Source: Candidatus Kapaibacterium sp.
GTDB lineage: Bacteria > Bacteroidota > Ignavibacteria > Kapaibacteriales > Kapaibacteriaceae
DNA: 64,000 nt
Assembly: GCA_030833725.1 (NCBI GenBank)
Contig: JAURGP010000002.1
Location: 1 to 64,000, forward strand
Reading direction: 5' to 3'
This document shows, piece after piece, positions 18,225 through 30,152 of this stretch (its first letter is position 1; every line of letters starts with the position of its first letter). A program made the position numbers and the translations under genes. The notes below the pieces were generated by a model. The model was not told the origin of the DNA and ran no database searches. It was given only the letters and a program-made list of their open reading frames with translations.

Positions 18225-20279
18225 TTATTTTATTGGACTTAGCACCACCACGCCGGGAAAAGGTTTTCCCGGCGTGGTCGGCGTCGTCTGAACCACAAAG
18301 TACACACTCCGACCACTCACCAACACCTCCTCGCAGTGCTCCGAGCCTGTCACGACCCAACGCTTCACGAGGGTTCCATCATAGGCAAAGAGGGCAATCG
18401 TCTCTCCAGGCCACACACCGCGAACGCACACTCGGTTACCCTGCCACGATGCCGTGAACGACGGTGCTACACGCTCTTCCACGTCCGTTGGAGCGAACTG
18501 AAAGGGTTCGCTCTCCGACGCACAGTTGCCGAATTGCCTGCTGCGCGTCACTACGCGGTAGGCCGCTGCTTTTGTTGGCACGTACCACGGCCGGTTCCAG
18601 CCTGTTATGGGCACATTACCAACAAACCACTGATAGCTGTCTGCCAGCGGCGATGCCCATAGTGTGTCGGCGCGCAGCGATAGTGAGGTGGTAGGGGGCT
18701 CGTAGTTACGCAGGGTGAAGCGCACTGGTCCAACTGTGAGTACGCAACCATTCTCGGCGTCAGGCAAAATCTCTGCAGTGATAGAGTATGTGCCGGGTTG
18801 TGCAATGGCAATCACCTCGTTGGTATCACCCGTACTCCACGCAACAGTGTTGTAGCCAGGCCCATCCACCTGAACGGACAACCGCAAGCCCCCTTCCCCA
18901 TTACACAGAACGGTGTCTCCTGCTACGTTTACCCGCGCTGAAGGCACCGGAACTTGCGTCACCACAATCGAGTCTACCACCTCTCCACATCCTTTTGTGC
19001 TCCGGGCAATGGCACGGTACACTCCAGGAGTACTCACCGTAATCTCTGCAGTAGTTGCACCAGTCGACCACTCGACAGTGGCATCTGCACTGGCAGCTGC
19101 ACGGAGTGTTACCGTATCACCTGGACATATCGCAGACGGTCCAATCATTTGCAATTCCGGGGGGCGTGCCCACGCTATGATGGTGTCCACCACATCACCG
19201 TCAAAGCATGTTGTGTTCACCAAGGCGATCACATTTTCACGCTCCTTGATGACGTATCGATACGTCGTGCCACGCACACTGTCGGGCAACCACATCACCG
19301 ATGCTACCGGCCCGTTGTACGTCAGAACAATCGTGTCGCCTACGCATCCAACTGTGGTACTCATGCGGATGTCGCTACTGGCGAGTATCCGCATGGTTGT
19401 CTGCATCTGCGTCGTGCCTATGGCAGACATCGCACGATTGTCTCGGTTGAGGATGTGATTCACATAGGCAAACGTGGTGGCAAACTGCTGAGCACGATCA
19501 ATCGTACCGGGACACGTGAACTCACCGATGGAGCAGAGTGTATTCTGGTCTGCAAACTGACAGTGACTGCCGCCGGGAATCACGCCCAGTGCCTTGCACG
19601 TTGCCGCTACGGCGTTGTACATCGGTTGAATGGTTGTAAGGGGCGTCACGCAGTCCTCGCTTCCGGCAAGGATCAACGTGGGGCAGGTTACCGAAGCCGC
19701 AGCAGCTGTTGCACTGGGATTTGTTTCGGCTGGTGCCAAGGCGATCACGCTGGCGAGATTCCAATCCGTGTTGTCAAGGATGGTTTTGGCTGCAAGAAAC
19801 GAGGAGCCCCCTCCCATCGAGTGACCGATCAGGACGTAGTCATCACGAATCGCACCCTGCCAGCGTGAGCCTGCACGCGTGTTCTCTTGCCTGATCCATG
19901 CAAGACAGGCAACGATGTCATCGGCATACTCTGCATGATCTGGAAACAATCCGGAACCCGTTTCAGGAAGGATGGCAATAAAGCCAGCGGAATTCTTGCA
20001 GACCTCCGTTGCCAATGAAGTGTAGGCCCCTACCGGTAGTTGGTATCCATGAGCGATGACTGCAACACCAAAGTTTTCAGTGGAGCCTGTCGTGGATCCC
20101 TGCAATGGCGCATCGGTGCCACCAGGTGCCTCGGCAGGATAGATGATGGTGACGGCGATGGATGCACCGCGAGCTGCATCCTGAAAGGTAAGGCGTGTAC
20201 GACCCTCGTAGTAGGCTGCAGAAACAGTCTGGGCAACGGTGCATAGAATACCCACACACAACAGAAGAGTTAGCTTCAT
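18225..20279 (-). CDS. Secreted alpha/beta hydrolase (PAF-acetylhydrolase/dienelactone-like) with Ig/PKD-like repeats; C-terminus read from an interspersed repeat
   Basis: VLIGHSMGGGSSFLAAKT nucleophile elbow; CPTLILAGSEDCVTP; tail VVQTTPTTPGKPFPGVVVLSPIK encoded by the repeat at 18252-18273. Confidence 0.85.
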   Translation of the reverse strand: MKLTLLLCVGILCTVAQTVSAAYYEGRTRLTFQDAARGASIAVTIIYPAEAPGGTDAPLQGSTTGSTENFGVAVIAHGYQLPVGAYTSLATEVCKNSAGFIAILPETGSGLFPDHAEYADDIVACLAWIRQENTRAGSRWQGAIRDDYVLIGHSMGGGSSFLAAKTILDNTDWNLASVIALAPAETNPSATAAAASVTCPTLILAGSEDCVTPLTTIQPMYNAVAATCKALGVIPGGSHCQFADQNTLCSIGEFTCPGTIDRAQQFATTFAYVNHILNRDNRAMSAIGTTQMQTTMRILASSDIRMSTTVGCVGDTIVLTYNGPVASVMWLPDSVRGTTYRYVIKERENVIALVNTTCFDGDVVDTIIAWARPPELQMIGPSAICPGDTVTLRAAASADATVEWSTGATTAEITVSTPGVYRAIARSTKGCGEVVDSIVVTQVPVPSARVNVAGDTVLCNGEGGLRLSVQVDGPGYNTVAWSTGDTNEVIAIAQPGTYSITAEILPDAENGCVLTVGPVRFTLRNYEPPTTSLSLRADTLWASPLADSYQWFVGNVPITGWNRPWYVPTKAAAYRVVTRSRQFGNCASESEPFQFAPTDVEERVAPSFTASWQGNRVCVRGVWPGETIALFAYDGTLVKRWVVTGSEHCEEVLVSGRSVYFVVQTTPTTPGKPFPGVVVLSPIK
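18252..18273 (+). repeat. Interspersed palindrome (GG type) inside ORF 3' end
   Basis: acGCCGGGAAAAGGTTTTCCCGGCgt. Confidence 0.97.
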
Positions 20280-20333
20280 CGCACTACCTTTGTTTCTGCG
20301 ATACATCGTCCACGATACATGGTAGTGAAAATA

Positions 20334-20960
20334 ATGCACGCATTGGTCATTGGCGGTACTGGTCTTGTTGGCGTGGAACTGCTTCGACTTCTGGCGAGCG
20401 ATACAGAGTTTTCACGTATTGACTCCGTGGGCCGCAGTATCGTACCCGACCTCCAGGATCGTGTTCATCAGGTAGTGATGGATCTCCTGGAGGAATCACT
20501 TCCAGCAAATGTCACGCCCGACGTTGTGTTCTGCTGCTTGGGCACAACGATTCGCACGGCTGGATCGCAAGAGGCCTTTCGCCGCGTAGACTATGAGATG
20601 CCGATGAGGATTGCCAAAGCTGCACGTACGCGTGGGGCGCAGCACTTCATTCTGGTGAGCTCGCTTGGAGCAAACCCCGCATCCCGAACGTTTTACTCCC
20701 GCATTAAGGGAGAACTGGAACGCGACCTCCAGAAGCTGGGGTATCCGTCACTGACGTTTGTCCGGCCGTCCTTGCTGTTGGGTGATCGCACTGAGCCACG
20801 GTTTGGTGAACAAGTAGCTACGCTTGTGATGCTCACGTTCCGGTTACTCATCCCACGCTCGTTGCGTGCCATTTCAGCAACGCGCGTAGCAGCCGCAATG
20901 GTAGCCGCCGCGAAGCGGCGGCGGGTGGGGGTGGAGGTGATCGAGAATCGGGTGTTGTGA
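20334..20960 (+). CDS. NAD(P)-binding oxidoreductase (HTATIP2-like SDR)
   Basis: MHALVIGGTGLVGVELLRLLASD; CCLGTTIRTAGSQEAFRRVDYEMPMRIAKAARTRGAQHFILVSSLGANPASRTFYSRIKGELERDL. Confidence 0.9.
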   Translation: MHALVIGGTGLVGVELLRLLASDTEFSRIDSVGRSIVPDLQDRVHQVVMDLLEESLPANVTPDVVFCCLGTTIRTAGSQEAFRRVDYEMPMRIAKAARTRGAQHFILVSSLGANPASRTFYSRIKGELERDLQKLGYPSLTFVRPSLLLGDRTEPRFGEQVATLVMLTFRLLIPRSLRAISATRVAAAMVAAAKRRRVGVEVIENRVL

Positions 20961-20965
20961 CAGAC

Positions 20966-20987
20966 GCCGGGAAAAGGTTTTCCCGGC
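20966..20987 (+). repeat. Interspersed palindrome (GG type) between convergent genes
   Basis: acGCCGGGAAAAGGTTTTCCCGGCgt. Confidence 0.97.
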
Positions 20988-21003
20988 GTTGTCGATATGT
21001 CCG

Positions 21004-22131
21004 CTACGGCAACTCGTCGTACTGATACCCCAACACGGATTCATCCATGACAGCAGCTGGAGTATTGAGTCCGTCCATCCGGAAGTCCCAGGGCATGAGC
21101 ACCTCATTCAACCCAGACATCATCTCGCCACCGGAGGCGTAGTTTTTTCCGTGCCGCTTCATCCAGCCTGACCAGATCCGATCGATATTGGCGTGATGAA
21201 TCCAGAAGACTGGATCGTTGGGCGACGTGGCTTGGCACATACTTCCTGCATAGATATTTCCGTCAGGTGCTCTCCAGATACCACCTACGTATACGTGAAC
21301 GATGTTGTGTTGCGTGCTTCCACGCTCACCAGGAATACTAATTACATCCATAACTCCATTGGGATCGCATTCATTACCTGCCGTTCCACGCCAACCCTCC
21401 AGAGAATTGCGGAAGCTGATCGTTGTATCAACAGAGCTATCCCATGGAGCACTGTCGTACGTGGGGATGCTAAGCGACCCCAATATTTCTGCACTGGTAG
21501 GTAGCAGTGCGTCGGCGTTGAGGTTCTTGCCGATTCGACGCGTCAGATATGGAACAACATTGGGACTTGTGTTGTGATCAAAGAACACCGAGTCAATATC
21601 CACTTCATCTGAAACGGTAATGATCCATGCATCCTTCTGGAAGGGGCCGGAGGTAACGGCATAGCCCTGTGACGGATCACCATCGCCCCCTACCAATTCG
21701 TCCGAGAACAGAACCTGCTGAGCCGAGGGATCGGTCCAGTCCCAATATGGAATCGTGACATCCTTTCCACTGACGTCGCGCAAAGCACGCTCGAACAGGT
21801 CAAGATACACGCGGTGCCATGGGAGGAAGCCGGGATTCATGTGGGCGGGAAACATGCCATCACCACCAACCGTACCTGCATCGCAGAAGAATGCGAGGTA
21901 GTGCCACTTCACGAACTGATCGTAATAATTCAGCGTGGGGTCGTATGGCGAGGGCACGGTCTTCAGCGCCTTCACTGCGGAGACGAAATCGGCTTTTTCC
22001 TCGGTTGTCATCCGGGTTACGCTCTTGCGCACACGCAGATTTGAGGGGTTCGATGGATTGGTTGACGTGCATGCAGCGCTGAACAGAGCAACGATAGCCA
22101 GGCTGATGGCGATGTATGGTAGTGTTTTCAT
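21004..22131 (-). CDS. Tyrosinase-family copper oxidase (lipoprotein)
   Basis: Lipobox LFSAACTS; CuA-like WHYLAF...HMNPGFLPWHRVYLDLFERAL...PYWDW; CuB-like QHNIVHVYVGG...DPVFWIHHANIDRIW. Confidence 0.92.
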   Translation of the reverse strand: MKTLPYIAISLAIVALFSAACTSTNPSNPSNLRVRKSVTRMTTEEKADFVSAVKALKTVPSPYDPTLNYYDQFVKWHYLAFFCDAGTVGGDGMFPAHMNPGFLPWHRVYLDLFERALRDVSGKDVTIPYWDWTDPSAQQVLFSDELVGGDGDPSQGYAVTSGPFQKDAWIITVSDEVDIDSVFFDHNTSPNVVPYLTRRIGKNLNADALLPTSAEILGSLSIPTYDSAPWDSSVDTTISFRNSLEGWRGTAGNECDPNGVMDVISIPGERGSTQHNIVHVYVGGIWRAPDGNIYAGSMCQATSPNDPVFWIHHANIDRIWSGWMKRHGKNYASGGEMMSGLNEVLMPWDFRMDGLNTPAAVMDESVLGYQYDELP

Positions 22132-22159
22132 AGGTGCGATGATACGACAATGTAACGAC

Positions 22160-22181
22160 GCCGGGAAAACCTTTTCCCGGC
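22160..22181 (-). repeat. Interspersed palindrome (CC type), left arm of dimer in divergent promoter region
   Basis: acGCCGGGAAAACCTTTTCCCGGCgt. Confidence 0.97.
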
Positions 22182-22186
22182 GTGGT

Positions 22187-22208
22187 GCCGGGAAAAGGTT
22201 TTCCCGGC
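22187..22208 (+). repeat. Interspersed palindrome (GG type), right arm of dimer, spacer gtggt
   Basis: GCCGGGAAAAGGTTTTCCCGGCgt. Confidence 0.97.
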
Positions 22209-22276
22209 GTCGTCAACTTCCCGATGTTTGCCACAGCAAAACGTTCACCCCTTCACCCCCAACCACCTATAACACC

Positions 22277-24103
22277 ATGCAGCAGTACCGCTACGTCATC
22301 AGTGCGTTTGTGTGCCTCTTCGTATGCCTCACGCTCACCGTACTTCCTAGTCTGGCACAGCAACAGGAGATTCCCCAGCCTCCATCTGTTCGTGCACGCG
22401 ATGGAGTGCTGACCGACACACTGAACCTCGTGCTGGCCACAATCGCTGTAGGTGAACGCCAAGTATTGGCACGCACCTACAACGGTACAGCTCCGGGGTC
22501 CATCTGGCGTGTTCACCCAGGTGAAACCATGCGGATTCACCTGAACAACCAGCTTCCTCCAAATCCGGATGCTGATCTGCCAGATCAAGGCAACTACCCG
22601 CAGCGTGCAAACACAACAAACCTGCACGTCCATGGTTTGAATGTGTCGCCAAAGGATAATGGCGACAACGTTCTGTTGAGCATTGAGCCACAATCGTCGT
22701 TCGACTTCGAGTTCGAGTTGCCCGCCGACCACGCAGCCGGCACATACTGGTATCACCCGCATCACCACACATCCACGTGGTCGCAGGTGGTCAACGGTCT
22801 TGCTGGTGCCATCGTGATCGAGGATCCTACAGATCCATCAGTCACGGATCCTGCGCTCCTCGCCATGAGCGATCGCGTGTTTCTCTTCTCGTCATACATG
22901 ATCGATACGGCTACGAATACCATTGGCTATCCTCGCCGCTTAGCGTCTGCAACGGCAACGACCCCAATACCAGGTAGTGATTCACCCGTGTTCGTCAATG
23001 GTGTACTGTCAGGGACGGTTACCATGCGCCCTGGTGAGATTCAGCGCTGGCGCTTCATCGATGCCACGTATGAGTTTTCCATGCGCCTTACGTGGTTGCA
23101 CATCAGCAATGGCGATACCACGCGTGTTGAGCAGTGGGAGATCGCTAACGATGGCTTGTACTTTCCTGCTCCGAAGCCAACCTCCCAGGTGACGTTTACT
23201 GCCGGTGCGCGGAGCGATGTTCTTGTGCAGGCGCCGGCCGCCGAAGGGCGCTATATAGTCCAGCTCGAGGCGTTGGATCGTGGGATGAGGGTGATGGAAA
23301 CGCGAGAACTCATCGACATTATTGTAGGGGGCGACCCAGTGCTTCCAGCAATGACCATGCCGGCAGTTCTGCCGAAGGCCATGGCAGCGGGTACCATTCG
23401 CGACGAGGAGATTACTGGTACACGCCAGATCACGTTCCGCATCGGCGATTTTGGTGAGGTTGCGAAGGACTCTTCGGCTATCACCCGCACCTTTACGATC
23501 GACAACTCCCCGTTCAGCCATGATGTGGTGAACATGACAGTGAAAGCTGGCGATGTGGAGGAGTGGACGATTGTGAACGAGAGTGGCGGCTATCACCCAT
23601 TTCACATCCACGTAAATGAGTTTGAAGTGGTTGAGGTGAATGGCGTACGTCAAGATCCGGTGATCTGGCGCGACGTACTTCTGCTTGCACCCAATAGCAC
23701 CTATAAGATTCGTCAGCGCTATACCGACTACGATGGCAAGACCGTCTTGCACTGCCACTTCCTTCCTCATGAAGACTGGGGCATGATGAACATCATCGAT
23801 ATTCTGCCTCGCACATCGAATGTGAAAGAGACACCGTGGACCGAGCCCCTTGCCTTCCCGAACCCTGTTACGGGCAGGATGTCCACACTGAATGTGCAAC
23901 TGCCCGAATTCCTGGGAGACCGACGAGTGGACATCACGTTGCACGACATTACCGGCTCGGTGGTGAGAACACTGCAGACGTCGGCGGCCGAAAGCCCAGT
24001 TGTAGAGATCGATGTACAGGATATGCCGGCAGGATCGTACTACGTGCGCGTATCGGACGGTGAGGCGTACCGTACATCGGATATGGTGATTATCGTTAGA
24101 TGA
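22277..24103 (+). CDS. Multicopper oxidase with T9SS C-terminal sorting domain
   Basis: NLHVHGLNVSP, GTYWYHPHHHT, YHPFHIHVNEFEV, LHCHFLPHEDWGMM copper ligands; C-terminus LAFPNPVTGRMSTLNVQLP...MPAGSYYVRVSDGE. Confidence 0.95.
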   Translation: MQQYRYVISAFVCLFVCLTLTVLPSLAQQQEIPQPPSVRARDGVLTDTLNLVLATIAVGERQVLARTYNGTAPGSIWRVHPGETMRIHLNNQLPPNPDADLPDQGNYPQRANTTNLHVHGLNVSPKDNGDNVLLSIEPQSSFDFEFELPADHAAGTYWYHPHHHTSTWSQVVNGLAGAIVIEDPTDPSVTDPALLAMSDRVFLFSSYMIDTATNTIGYPRRLASATATTPIPGSDSPVFVNGVLSGTVTMRPGEIQRWRFIDATYEFSMRLTWLHISNGDTTRVEQWEIANDGLYFPAPKPTSQVTFTAGARSDVLVQAPAAEGRYIVQLEALDRGMRVMETRELIDIIVGGDPVLPAMTMPAVLPKAMAAGTIRDEEITGTRQITFRIGDFGEVAKDSSAITRTFTIDNSPFSHDVVNMTVKAGDVEEWTIVNESGGYHPFHIHVNEFEVVEVNGVRQDPVIWRDVLLLAPNSTYKIRQRYTDYDGKTVLHCHFLPHEDWGMMNIIDILPRTSNVKETPWTEPLAFPNPVTGRMSTLNVQLPEFLGDRRVDITLHDITGSVVRTLQTSAAESPVVEIDVQDMPAGSYYVRVSDGEAYRTSDMVIIVR

Positions 24104-24624
24104 TCAGACTTTTCTGGACAAATGTTGCACTCCTGATAGCGCTAGCTGTTGCGGCTGGCGCTGCAGTGCATACGCCCCGTTCCATTGACTCCCTGCCTGT
24201 CGTGTATGGTGCTGATTCTTCCGCAATCGACCTTCTGGCAGCATCGGACACAACAACCGTCGTTGCCGTCCGACATCTTGGTGCGATCTGCTCCCACTGC
24301 GTGGAGCAGATCATCCTGCTGAACGAGTACGCCAATGAGTTTCGTCGGAGAAATGCACGTGTGATTGCCTTCTCTATGGACGACGTTGATGAGTGCCAAC
24401 TGGCAGCAAAGGAGCATGCCATCGACACCGATGTTCTGCAGCTCTGCTACGATGAGCGCGATGCGTGTTCTCGTGCAGTGGGTAGCACGATCCAGGAGAT
24501 TGATGGATCGTTTACCGATCTCCACGCCGTGCTCGTGATCCGAAAGCGCATCGTGGTGTTTGAGCACTACTCTACGCAGCCGTTGATGTCGCTGGGTGGT
24601 GTTTTTGAGGTGCTGGGTGAGTGA
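24100..24624 (+). CDS. Thioredoxin-fold/AhpC-TSA-like protein
   Basis: VVAVRHLGAICSHCVEQIILLNEYANEFRRRNARVIAFSMDD (CxxC); overlaps the MCO stop (ATGA). Confidence 0.75.
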   Translation: MIRLFWTNVALLIALAVAAGAAVHTPRSIDSLPVVYGADSSAIDLLAASDTTTVVAVRHLGAICSHCVEQIILLNEYANEFRRRNARVIAFSMDDVDECQLAAKEHAIDTDVLQLCYDERDACSRAVGSTIQEIDGSFTDLHAVLVIRKRIVVFEHYSTQPLMSLGGVFEVLGE

Positions 24625-24647
24625 CGCCGAGGGCGACGGAGGACCAC

Positions 24648-24669
24648 GCCGGGAAAAGGTTTTCCCGGC
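24648..24669 (+). repeat. Interspersed palindrome (GG type)
   Basis: acGCCGGGAAAAGGTTTTCCCGGCgt. Confidence 0.97.
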
Positions 24670-24730
24670 GTCGTGTAACTAACAGTCTGTTCACATAGTC
24701 CCCGCACGAGTTATCACATAGGAGAGCCGA

Positions 24731-26110
24731 ATGAGACGCGTCATTGCTACACTGCTTCTGGCTGCCAGTCCAGTACTTCACTACGCGCAAACCAACCCAG
24801 CGATTACATCGTGGTTGATTAACACAACTGGGGCAAAGGGTCGACACTACGTGCAGGGTAATCCTGCACCGATTGCAGATACCATGCTTGCCAATGTGAT
24901 GCTGGTGCGGTATTCGGAGGCATATAGCTATGTGAATTGCAACGGTATCCCTTCCTACGTGATTGGACCATATCCCGACGGCAATCCGGCTACTGCGGTT
25001 GGACGGAACTATCTCTTCAAGATCCCGCTGGATCCTCAGCCAAACACCGGAACCAAAACGGCTGTCGGGTTAGGCCACATTGCAGTACTCGTCAACGGTG
25101 TGCCAGTGTACAACTACGCTGACGCGCGCTCGTACAACAACCAGAATATTTGGCACCAGAACGCCGTGTTCTTTGAGCGGATTGGATTCGACTGCTCGAA
25201 GGGTCATCCTGCACCTTTGCGTACGGGTCCTCCAGGTATGGGAGGGGGCTCGGCAGATGGTCAGTATCATCATCACCAAGATCCCTCGGCCTTCAACGTT
25301 GCCAAGGTTGTGATGTCGGACATTTGCGATATGTACCTCGCTGATGGTCTGTACGTCCCAGATAGCACACAGCATGGCCCCCTGATTGGATTCGCCTTTG
25401 ATGGCTATCCGATCTATGCTGCCTATGGATGGGCTGATGGCACTCAATCTGTTCGACGGATCACGTCCAGCTATCAAATCCGCTCCATCGGCGAGCGAAC
25501 AACACTTCCGGACGGCACAGTGCTGTCGACGTCACAGTATGGTCCTGCCCTATCGCAGTATCCACTTGGCGCCTACGCCGAGGACTACGAGTACCTTGCT
25601 GGTTCTGGTGACCTCGACGAGCATAACGGCAGGTTCTGCATCACGCCGGAGTATCCCGGTGGTACGTATGCCTACTTTGCGACGATCGATGAAGACGGTA
25701 ATTCGGTGTACCCATATGTGATCGGGCCCACATACTACGGCGTAGTAGAGCAGTCGAATTTTGCTGGTACTGGCCCTGGAGCGGCTCCAACTCGGGTAAC
25801 GATCACTGAACCAGTAACTCGCTACCTCCCCGGCGTGACCTCTGTTCGAGACGTAGAGAATGCCATTACTCCTACGGTGTTCCCAAATCCGGCCATGGAC
25901 GTCATCATCGTACAAGTGCGGCAACCTCTTCAGGCTGATGCCACCGTCAGCATGTACGACCTACGAGGAGTCCTTGTCCGATCATCACGCATTCACTCCG
26001 GCAGCACGATGTGCTACGTGGATGTGGAGACACTGTACGCAGGCACGTACATCGTCCATGTTGAAACCCATGGTGTTGTACGGTCGTATCCAGTCATTCT
26101 TGGAGAGTGA
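24731..26110 (+). CDS. YHYH domain protein with T9SS C-terminal sorting domain
   Basis: DGQYHHHQDPSAF...IGFAFDGYPIYAAYG; C-terminus TVFPNPAMDVIIVQV...LYAGTYIVHVET. Confidence 0.88.
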   Translation: MRRVIATLLLAASPVLHYAQTNPAITSWLINTTGAKGRHYVQGNPAPIADTMLANVMLVRYSEAYSYVNCNGIPSYVIGPYPDGNPATAVGRNYLFKIPLDPQPNTGTKTAVGLGHIAVLVNGVPVYNYADARSYNNQNIWHQNAVFFERIGFDCSKGHPAPLRTGPPGMGGGSADGQYHHHQDPSAFNVAKVVMSDICDMYLADGLYVPDSTQHGPLIGFAFDGYPIYAAYGWADGTQSVRRITSSYQIRSIGERTTLPDGTVLSTSQYGPALSQYPLGAYAEDYEYLAGSGDLDEHNGRFCITPEYPGGTYAYFATIDEDGNSVYPYVIGPTYYGVVEQSNFAGTGPGAAPTRVTITEPVTRYLPGVTSVRDVENAITPTVFPNPAMDVIIVQVRQPLQADATVSMYDLRGVLVRSSRIHSGSTMCYVDVETLYAGTYIVHVETHGVVRSYPVILGE

Positions 26111-26113
26111 TCG

Positions 26114-26704
26114 GTGCTGGAGGTCCTTCTCTCGATTGTGTTTGTCGTCCACTCTACGGGAAATGGTGGGCAATACACCTTGGAGCGCGCTCAGTGGTAT
26201 GTTGGGAACGTTGAACTCCATGCCATCGACGGGAGTTCGTATCGCATCGCAGGCTACTACCTCCTAGATACCGACGATCCACAATCACTCAGGCTAGAGC
26301 TGCCAGAGCTTCTGCCTCACGCAGACTATCGGTCCTTGAGCTTCACTCTTGGGGTAGACAGCCTTGATAATCACGGTGGACCGCGGGAGGGGGCTCTCGA
26401 TCCAATGCACGGCATGTACTGGACCTGGTCGACAGGGTACATCTTCCTGAAGATTGAAGGTACGGCTTCGGCGTCGCCTCAGCCCAAGAAACGTATCGAG
26501 TACCACCTTGGGGGTTTTAGAGCCCCCTACAACAATATCCGTCGCGTACACTGTGCGATGACGAGCGGACAGGAAGCCCGCATCGTGGTAGATGTTGATG
26601 CGTTCATGCGCACGATTAATGTTGCCCAGACTCCAGGCGTCATGGATGTACGTTCATCTGCCGATCTGATTGATCAGGCAGTGGAGATGTTCCGTGCACC
26701 ATAA
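26114..26704 (+). CDS. MbnP family copper-binding-like protein
   Basis: LERAQWYVGNVELHAIDG...YLLDTDDP...LSFTLGVDSLDNHGG...ALDPMHGMYWTWSTGYIFLKIEG: MbnP/TIGR04052-like pattern; GTG start. Confidence 0.82.
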   Translation: MLEVLLSIVFVVHSTGNGGQYTLERAQWYVGNVELHAIDGSSYRIAGYYLLDTDDPQSLRLELPELLPHADYRSLSFTLGVDSLDNHGGPREGALDPMHGMYWTWSTGYIFLKIEGTASASPQPKKRIEYHLGGFRAPYNNIRRVHCAMTSGQEARIVVDVDAFMRTINVAQTPGVMDVRSSADLIDQAVEMFRAP

Positions 26705-27662
26705 GATTGTGGTTATCTGTATGCTGGTTGTAGCGATCGCTACAACGGTAGTGCAGAGTGGAAATCATGGTGAGCAGGACGAAGCAGTCGTTGCCCTTGG
26801 AAGACGACTGTTCTACGATCCCGTGCTTTCTGTAGATCAAACTACCAGCTGTGGTACGTGTCATCAGCAGTTTGCAGCGTTTGCGCATGTAGACCACGCG
26901 CTGAGTCACGGAGTGTACGGACGTATCGGTACCCGTAACGTACCGGCACTGCAGAATCTTGCATCTCGCCGTGGTTTCATGTGGGACGGTGCGATTGAGC
27001 ACCTGGACATGCAGGCGTTAAGCCCCCTAACCAGTCACGCTGAAATGGGCGAAACCCTACCACGCATCCTAGAGAAGCTTGACAGTGTGGGATGGTGCCG
27101 AACCCTGATGACGCAGGCCTATGGTAGTCCAGACATTACGATCCCGCGAGTGCTGCGTGCATTGGGTCGATTCGTGGCTACGTTGGAGAGTCGTTCTTCT
27201 CGGTTCGACCGTTGGCATGCAGGGCAGGACACGTTAGCTGAGAACGAGAGACGAGGGTATGATCTTTTCCGAGCATACTGCGCATCATGCCACAATGGTA
27301 TCGACTTCACCGATGATTCCTTTCGCAGCAATGGTCTGCCGCTGGATTCACTCTTGATGGATCACGGACGCGAGCGAGTAACGCTGGACGAGCAGGATCG
27401 GTACCGGTTCAAAGTGCCATCACTTCGAAACGTGGGGCGCACAATGCCCTATATGCATGATGGTCGGTTCAAGCGTCTTCGAGATGTACTTGCCCATTAT
27501 GCGCAGCAAGACGATCTCGCCGACCATGCTGATCCGTTGGTGCGATCAATTGCACCACTGGATGACCGTGCCCGCAAGGATCTGATCGCCTTTCTGCTCA
27601 CGCTGACTGATGAGGCATTTCTTCGGGATACAGCGTTCGGCGAGAAGGAGGTATGGGAGTAA
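26694..27662 (+). CDS. Di-haem cytochrome c peroxidase/MauG family (MbnH-like)
   Basis: LGRRLFYDPVLSVDQTTSCGTCHQQFAAFAH and YCASCHNGIDFTD (two CxxCH); KVPSLRNVGRTMPYMHDGRF. Overlaps the mbnP-like gene; start approximate. Confidence 0.9.
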   Translation: MHHKIVVICMLVVAIATTVVQSGNHGEQDEAVVALGRRLFYDPVLSVDQTTSCGTCHQQFAAFAHVDHALSHGVYGRIGTRNVPALQNLASRRGFMWDGAIEHLDMQALSPLTSHAEMGETLPRILEKLDSVGWCRTLMTQAYGSPDITIPRVLRALGRFVATLESRSSRFDRWHAGQDTLAENERRGYDLFRAYCASCHNGIDFTDDSFRSNGLPLDSLLMDHGRERVTLDEQDRYRFKVPSLRNVGRTMPYMHDGRFKRLRDVLAHYAQQDDLADHADPLVRSIAPLDDRARKDLIAFLLTLTDEAFLRDTAFGEKEVWE

Positions 27663-28898: not shown

Positions 28899-29150
28899 TT
28901 AGAACGTGTAGCGAATACCCACCTGCACCTGCCAACGCGAAGCTAAGTCGCTAAATCCAAACGGATCGCGCTTGTCCGTGTAGCTGCAGATCGGTGTGCC
29001 CACAGCAACTGGGCTGTCCGCACACGTCCCCAATCGGAGTTGAGCCTGCTCAGGAAGGTGATGAAGTCCCCGGAGATGTCTAGGCGGTGACCCTTGACGA
29101 ATGGGTTTGGTAGCTCCTGCATCTGGCGCAGGTCCAGCTGGGGCCGACGA
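28899..29150 (-). pseudogene. C-terminal remnant of an outer-membrane/TonB-dependent receptor-like protein with frameshift, cut by repeat
   Basis: One frame reads QMQELPNPFVKGHRLDISGDFITFLSRLNSDWG; a second frame continues TCADSPVAVGTPICSYTDKRDPFGFSDLASRWQVQVGIRYTF*, ending in an aromatic beta-barrel strand. Upstream end abuts the truncated repeat. Confidence 0.55.
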
Positions 29151-29151
29151 C

Positions 29152-29163
29152 GCCTTTCCCGGC
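29152..29163 (-). repeat. Truncated palindrome, left arm of decayed dimer
   Basis: acgacgcc[deletion]tttcccggcgtggt aligns with the intact dimer at 22157-22186. Confidence 0.8.
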
Positions 29164-29168
29164 GTGGT

Positions 29169-29190
29169 GCCGGGAAAAGGTTTTCCCGGC
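29169..29190 (+). repeat. Interspersed palindrome (GG type), right arm of dimer
   Basis: GCCGGGAAAAGGTTTTCCCGGCgt. Confidence 0.97.
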
Positions 29191-29363
29191 GTCGTCCTCA
29201 AAAAACGCTTTGATATAACCGGGAACTTTCGCAAATAAGGCTTGCGTTAAACCAAAGCAAACCGAAAATATGCACTTGAACCCCCTTCTCGGGGGAACTT
29301 TCACCCTAGTCGCTTGGTTGTCAGCCACATCACTTTTTTCATTCACCTCTGTTAGGACGTGCT

Positions 29364-30152
29364 ATGGGGACAGAGTCTACGATGATCGCTTTGGGTAGCG
29401 ATGGATACATGTTGGTGTTCAACATGTTCTCGTTCACGATTGCCGCAATGCTTTCGGCCTTCGTGTTTTTCATTTTGCGGCGTTCAGCCGTTGCACCGCA
29501 GTATCGCATGTCGCTGGTGGTGTCGTCGTTGGTAGTGGGCATTGCTGCCTATCACTACATTCGGATTTTCGATAGCTGGAACCATGCATACGACATGGCT
29601 ACCGGTATGTATAACCCTGCGTTGTTCAACGACGCATATCGCTACGTGGACTGGCTCCTGACTGTTCCTCTGCTTCTTGTTGAGTTGATCCTTGTGTTGA
29701 ATCTTGGCCGAGACAAGTCCGGTCCTCTGTTGACCAACCTGTCGATTGCCGCTGTACTGATGATTGCCCTCGGCTATCCAGGCGAAGTCATGAGTGCTAC
29801 GGCAAAGACGTCTATGATGTCCGAGTACGGCATGTGGGGCTTCTTGTCGACCATTCCTTTCGCCTACATCCTGTTTGTCCTATGGGGCAAGCTGGGCTCG
29901 GCTATGGAATCACAGCCTGAGCGCGTACGCGTATTGTTCCGCAACCTCCGACTCCTTCTGATCGCTACATGGGGTTTCTACCCAATCGTGTACTGCCTGC
30001 CTTATTTCGGTATGGACATTGCCTCGTCGATCGTCTCGATCCAGACGGGCTATGCCATCGCTGACGTTCTGGCTAAGGCTGGCTATGGTGTAATGATCTA
30101 CGCCATCGCTCGCGAGAAGTCGGCGGCCGACGGATGGCGCGAAGCTGCGTAA
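29364..30152 (+). CDS. Microbial rhodopsin, xanthorhodopsin/proteorhodopsin-like outward proton pump
   Basis: Helix C RYVDWLLTVPLLLVELILVL (D-T-E motif aligning with PR D97/T101/E108, Leu at tuning position 105); helix G ADVLAKAGYG with Schiff-base Lys; WGFYPIVYCLPYFG. Confidence 0.95.
   Translation: MGTESTMIALGSDGYMLVFNMFSFTIAAMLSAFVFFILRRSAVAPQYRMSLVVSSLVVGIAAYHYIRIFDSWNHAYDMATGMYNPALFNDAYRYVDWLLTVPLLLVELILVLNLGRDKSGPLLTNLSIAAVLMIALGYPGEVMSATAKTSMMSEYGMWGFLSTIPFAYILFVLWGKLGSAMESQPERVRVLFRNLRLLLIATWGFYPIVYCLPYFGMDIASSIVSIQTGYAIADVLAKAGYGVMIYAIAREKSAADGWREAA

Follow-up and report, generated by a model that had tools for sequence, protein, structure and literature searches.

The 64,000 nucleotides analysed here (contig JAURGP010000002.1 of assembly GCA_030833725.1, Candidatus Kapaibacterium sp.; hereafter, the window) encode at positions 21004 to 27662 a tyrosinase and, on the opposite strand, a multicopper oxidase (MCO), a redoxin, a YHYH protein, MbnP and MbnH. 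We think it rather probable that these six genes form a two-part copper-handling set, in which a core of MbnP, MbnH and YHYH, with a kynurenine-Cu(I) site made by MbnH, is complemented by an accessory module of oxidases. The three genes of the core go together in much of the phylum, and we could not find any earlier description of YHYH as the third partner of MbnP-MbnH in the literature. In the mechanism we propose, the periplasmic MbnH would oxidize W103, the first tryptophan of the WxW motif of MbnP, to kynurenine, and the MbnP bearing this kynurenine would hold one Cu(I). The YHYH protein, which the type IX secretion system (T9SS) would bring to the cell surface, would be a third, dedicated metal-binding partner. 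The accessory part would consist of a T9SS-exported MCO resembling CueO or laccases and of a CxxC redoxin, joined in this family by the tyrosinase. These copper enzymes could depend on the copper managed by the core, or act on it, e.g., by oxidizing Cu(I) at the surface. For MbnP of the type found in the window, the conversion of tryptophan to kynurenine and the binding of Cu(I) are extrapolated from Methylosinus and from CorA/MopE. The MbnH of Methylosinus reportedly oxidizes the first tryptophan of WxW, after which MbnP binds Cu(I) (a 2021 paper in PNAS). CorA and MopE have a copper site with a kynurenine derived from tryptophan (PMC3912023, PMC3423442).

The association of YHYH with MbnP and MbnH is apparent both within the order and beyond it. 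Among the 123 genomes of our order-level sample, 47 encode MbnP and 38 encode some YHYH protein. MbnP is present in 28 of the 30 genomes with the long form of YHYH, a form assigned by score and match span, versus 19 of the 93 without it (Fisher p = 5e-13, kinship ignored), and 23 of the 33 gene copies of the long form lie within 5 kb of MbnP. Two of the genomes with unlinked copies (G095 and G096) have MbnH adjoining YHYH at the end of the contig. When named genomes were searched with YHYH as the only query, at least 541 relatives were retrieved. The best 80 loci come nearly all from metagenome-assembled genomes of Bacteroidota; 64 of them have MbnP and/or MbnH in physical linkage, a fraction that, given this choice, holds for close relatives of the YHYH of the window. 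The count is 34 of 42 for loci with at least 4 kb of sequence on both sides, and the gaps between YHYH and the nearest MbnP or MbnH gene are typically of tens of bases. Six genomes lacking linkage, or lacking a linked MbnP, were searched further and all six encode MbnP elsewhere. Hence, co-occurrence and linkage together indicate that the clustering is not due to chance. A sample spanning the phylum includes a shorter YHYH subfamily, most of whose members are unlinked, and two further families (G134 and G164) with the linkage. A preliminary description of this DNA, made from its letters alone, had made its reading depend on the genes co-occurring in relatives and on the frame at 26114-26704 not belonging to an unrelated family: YHYH, MbnP and MbnH do co-occur, and the frame is placed by Pfam in the MbnP family (Table 1). 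The families it named for the other five genes are also found above the Pfam cut-offs in profile searches.

Table 1. Genes of the cluster, with positions in the window and profile matches
Gene	Positions	Strand	Matches and remarks
Tyrosinase	21004..22131	-	PF00264, 145 bits
Multicopper oxidase (MCO)	22277..24103	+	PF07731/PF07732; T9SS tail PF18962
Secreted thioredoxin-fold (AhpC-TSA/redoxin) protein	24100..24624	+	PF00578, 31 bits (cut-off 26)
YHYH protein	24731..26110	+	PF14240, 171 bits (cut-off 25); T9SS tail PF18962, 39 bits
MbnP	26114..26704	+	PF20243, 138 bits (cut-off 27); GTG start
MbnH, di-haem enzyme of the MauG/bCcP superfamily	26694..27662	+	CCP_MauG PF03150, 156 bits

The MbnP of the window retains the motif that the proposed chemistry would involve. 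This WxW motif reads WTW (residues 103-105) and is kept in 58 of 58 homologues, where W103, W105, H131, M101, D96, P97, G80, D82 and S83 are all invariant. Sequence searches of the PDB returned no solved relative of this protein; a fold search alone gave one. With the AlphaFold model (pLDDT 88), Foldseek retrieved six chains of 7l6g, the MbnP of Methylosinus trichosporium (E 3e-7, probability 1.00), and besides these no structure below E 0.001. Profile, fold and motifs thus converge on the identities that had been suggested for MbnP and MbnH. Other types of MbnP were also observed. The second MbnP of the same genome (G000:C24, approximately 19782-22690; L033:8782-11691) is longer, has WGW, and is followed by two tandem MbnH genes. 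One of its relatives (in L038) has a match to the T9SS tail slightly below the Pfam cut-off, so that an MbnP of that type may itself be exported. In six loci (L039, L063, L065, L069, L073 and L074) another type of MbnP-MbnH pair is followed by a secreted protein without Pfam match, with a mature start CEVCGCG or CDVCGCG, which is possibly an outer-membrane protein.

MbnH has two CxxCH haem motifs, CGTCH and CASCH, and these positions (C61xxC64H65 and C204xxC207H208; residues are counted from TTG 26670) are invariant in 20 MbnH sequences. Searched against the PDB, the family profile best matches 6e1c, an entry with the annotation "Di-heme enzyme" that we take to be the MbnH of Methylosinus trichosporium. 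Y277, also invariant in the 20 sequences, aligns with a tyrosine of 6e1c and with a methionine in the three bacterial cytochrome c peroxidases (bCcPs) shown. The alignment is thus consistent with Tyr277 replacing methionine as the distal ligand of the six-coordinate haem, a ligation described in MauG-like enzymes (PMC6405878). In a FastTree phylogeny of 134 proteins, the MbnH linked to YHYH form one branch with support 97, which includes the protein of the window. Among the 78 rows of this branch 71 are linked to YHYH, a count inflated by the 55 rows that were picked via YHYH; linkage holds for 17 of the 23 that were picked via MbnP or are the window's own. The only rows near YHYH outside the branch are those of L059, where two types of MbnH are adjacent.

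That the YHYH-linked MbnH form their own clade could have another explanation, which we regard as distinctly unlikely: YHYH could be a client of MbnH. The di-haem enzyme would oxidize or cross-link an aromatic side chain of YHYH, in the way MauG matures methylamine dehydrogenase, and the mature YHYH would be exported to work as an enzyme at the surface. The short distance often separating YHYH from the nearest MbnP or MbnH gene, the invariant W141 and the many conserved aromatic residues of YHYH would fit such a process, as would an operon (in L164) with regulators and MbnH-YHYH, without MbnP between them. Yet the genome of L164 does encode MbnP elsewhere, the operon hardly ever lacks MbnP, and the YHYH of three genomes (G010, G022 and G024) is away from MbnH and near the tyrosinase and the MCO. 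The locus itself (L164:5474-9326) comprises a sigma factor, an anti-sigma-like protein, a sensor, MbnH and YHYH.

The idea that YHYH binds metal at the surface as a partner of the MbnP-MbnH pair comes from its conserved residues, its export signals and its genomic company. H159, H180, H182, H215 and D224 are present in 52 of 52 sequences, and D154, C155 and C199 are likewise invariant. The protein has a signal peptide and a C-terminal T9SS tail. The preliminary description had assigned such tails to YHYH and to the MCO; in both the match to PF18962 is above the cut-off and SprA is encoded in the same genome, which makes the two proteins predicted type IX substrates. Neither sequence nor fold searches found a solved relative of the YHYH domain. 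The model (pLDDT 79) has low-confidence loops round the histidine motif, and nothing below E 0.8 was retrieved with it. We found no report in the literature tying YHYH to copper or TonB, nor an established function for it. A role in copper handling is thus suggested by association, and the linkage to MbnP-MbnH gives a strong functional lead for the large YHYH family. It is tempting, if quite doubtful, to go further and regard YHYH as a new kind of secreted metalloprotein that relies on MbnH/MbnP to mature or to be loaded with metal, within a three-gene copper system found across Bacteroidota and often under the control of extracytoplasmic function (ECF) sigma factors. A MauG-like enzyme would then serve an exported partner for which no solved relative was found. 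The near-constant third gene, the MbnH clade and the candidate metal sensor described below provide a testable handle on MbnP-MbnH systems without methanobactin.

What copper does in this system may be read in part from the regulators. The commonest gene order in Bacteroidia is ECF sigma factor, short membrane protein (anti-sigma), CnrX-like sensor, MbnP, MbnH and YHYH. The sigma factor and a sensor resembling Metal_resist, in which a histidine and a cysteine are nearly invariant, accompany the core in 25 of the 64 linked loci. This arrangement, with an ECF sigma factor and a small membrane-anchored protein resembling Metal_resist, recalls CnrYXH (ECF sigma factor, anti-sigma factor and periplasmic metal sensor), and, where it could be resolved, a short transmembrane protein also stands between sigma factor and sensor. 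It differs in that the match of the sensor is below the cut-off and in that none was found at the window locus. In the family of the window the core reads YHYH, MbnP and MbnH, and its immediate neighbours did not include such regulators. CnrYXH regulators respond to metal excess. Because the sensor weakly resembles CnrX-type proteins, a response to metal excess is favoured, if not settled, and we infer that copper tolerance is more likely than uptake. The same regulators lean away from the copper capture put forward in the preliminary description. An acquisition system free of methanobactin, in which YHYH and MCO would mobilize copper at the surface and MbnP would pass it inward under scarcity, seems unlikely to us. 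It would agree with the T9SS export of both proteins and with the precedent of CorA and MopE, surface or secreted proteins with a kynurenine-copper site that are repressed by copper (PMC3912023, PMC3423442). However, the recurrent regulators belong to a type associated elsewhere with metal excess, and no transporter or receptor was prominent among the recurrent neighbour clusters that we inspected. The core has other recurrent neighbours, namely a T9SS-tagged sulfatase and a protein with an Lcl_C domain accompanied by a weaker YHYH protein. The latter pair, in which both genes have T9SS-type tails (named in L118), was observed beside YHYH-MbnP-MbnH in L093, L095, L118, L151 and L161.

The oxidases have an evolutionary history of their own. 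The MCO has a signal peptide and a T9SS tail (35 bits, cut-off 27), and its copper-ligand motifs (HVHG, YHPHHH, HPFHIH and HCHxxxHxxxxM) are conserved in seven sequences; its best NCBIfam match is CueO (NF008205), with 117 bits, which misses the cut-off of 525. In the redoxin, both cysteines of the CSHC motif are invariant. The closest MCO homologues in the order, at 10 loci in nine genomes including the window, adjoin the redoxin, with a 4-nt overlap between MCO and redoxin genes wherever these were read; in the window this is the ATGA already pointed out. The tyrosinase has all six copper histidines (H77, H97 and H106; H275, H279 and H312/313), which are invariant, as is Cys21, in eight sequences of the family; its N terminus ends in ...FSAAC, suggesting a possible lipoprotein. 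It lies beside or near the MCO-redoxin pair in the window and in five other genomes (G010, G021, G022, G023 and G024). MCO and redoxin, often with the tyrosinase, constitute a separate module at the family level, and a single ancestral operon of six genes was rejected, since the modules come apart in relatives. Hence, the coupling of all six genes proposed in the preliminary description holds across the phylum for YHYH-MbnP-MbnH and does not extend to the tyrosinase and the MCO-redoxin pair.

This separation leads naturally to the possibility that the window brings together two unrelated functions, tyrosinase, MCO and redoxin acting on phenolics or melanin and YHYH-MbnP-MbnH being a distinct module. 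Most genomes with YHYH-MbnP-MbnH do lack the tyrosinase, and we hold this explanation to be possible, though somewhat unlikely. Two observations speak against it. Three genomes (G010, G022 and G024) have YHYH within 10 kb of the tyrosinase/MCO/redoxin module even though their MbnP-MbnH are on other contigs. Furthermore, eight loci of other classes have YHYH together with an MCO and a different CxxC redoxin, and seven of them also have MbnP-MbnH (L113, L126, L142, L151, L156, L158 and L160). Their MCOs share little similarity with those of the window set (E about 1e-22 to 1e-30), which makes it plausible that the five-part set was assembled independently in the family of the window and in other classes. 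Export of copper oxidases through the T9SS would link the surface chemistry of Bacteroidota with protein-derived kynurenine copper sites.

These interpretations should be taken with caution, since several observations weigh against a copper-handling set, or against its activity in this genome. The MbnP of the window is truncated at the N terminus: the Pfam match starts at profile position 22-24, the segment running in relatives from the signal peptide to the first strand is absent, and the signal peptide is poor. The activity of this protein is uncertain because of the missing segment, and its function may be impaired; its membership of the family stands on the remainder of the protein. An N terminus restored from another frame was considered and rejected, because the stop of YHYH and the first codon covered by the Pfam match are only about 45 nt apart. 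TIGR04052 (the MbnP_like_WxW equivalog), a check that the preliminary description had proposed, gives 38 bits for a cut-off of 140, so that this MbnP is not assigned to that equivalog. The best NCBIfam match of MbnH is TIGR04039, the MbnH family, and it too misses its cut-off (181 versus 363 bits). The sensor scores 25.8 bits with Metal_resist, below the curated cut-off of 29.2, and tyrosinases of this type are limited to part of one family, with eight genomes having them. YHYH domains of phages are predicted to be zinc-dependent hydrolases (PMC7824862), at odds with copper as the metal of YHYH. Finally, we found no biochemistry in the literature for any of these Bacteroidota proteins.

Among the closest known systems is the MbnP-MbnH pair, found in the methanobactin operons of methanotrophs and elsewhere, which shares with the present one the Pfam families, the WxW motif, the MbnP fold, the adjacency of the genes and the MbnH-type tyrosine. 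It differs from the window in that the latter has no methanobactin genes, misses both NCBIfam cut-offs and has a truncated MbnP, and in the near-constant third gene YHYH, the T9SS-tagged MCO and the distinct clade of MbnH. The absence of methanobactin genes had been noted in the window; a profile search with TIGR04159 extends it, for MbnB, to the whole genome. MbnP-MbnH without methanobactin is in itself not new, since these pairs were described in 2013 as conserved "far beyond" methanobactin producers (PMC3621798). CorA-CorB and MopE-SACCP are similar in combining a surface or secreted copper protein, a kynurenine derived from tryptophan and a paired di-haem enzyme of the bCcP type, but they are copper-repressed proteins of methanotrophs for which no YHYH has been reported. 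The YHYH domains of phage tails also match PF14240, with conserved histidines and aspartate and a predicted binding of metal (PMC7824862, PMC7029224), whereas the proteins studied here are cellular, T9SS-exported and in operons with MbnP-MbnH.

Some gene starts in the window could be refined. That of the MCO was corrected to ATG 22277, given its relatives and the ribosome-site context. For MbnH, GTG 26694 is the most likely start, rather than TTG 26670, because GGAG precedes the former and the resulting MHHKIVV... resembles the MHGRIVV... of relatives; with this start, the overlap of MbnH with MbnP, noticed before, has a length of 11 nt. The GC content is level across the cluster. Neither YHYH nor tyrosinase was found in the five genus mates sampled, and no DNA match to 21004-27662 was found in them; matches to the flank appear in some, from 28508 onwards. 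We therefore rejected the possibility that the cluster is genus-wide.

The surroundings of the cluster show additional features. A dispersed palindrome, ACGCCGGGAAAA(GG/CC)TTTTCCCGGCGT, occurs in 16 copies between 4127 and 33343 of the window, versus none in 100 shuffles, and was also found on contigs C10 and C27. The copies are mostly intergenic and sometimes in tandem pairs (e.g., 20964, 22158 and 22185, 24646, 27679 and 28788); one lies inside the 5' end of a phosphodiesterase gene, where it is translated as TPGKGFPG. Next to such repeats, a short frame on the reverse strand (28899-29234) ends in GIRYTF and is possibly the remnant of an outer-membrane protein. Downstream of the cluster, 29364-30152 encodes a seven-helix protein that resembles, by eye only, microbial rhodopsins.

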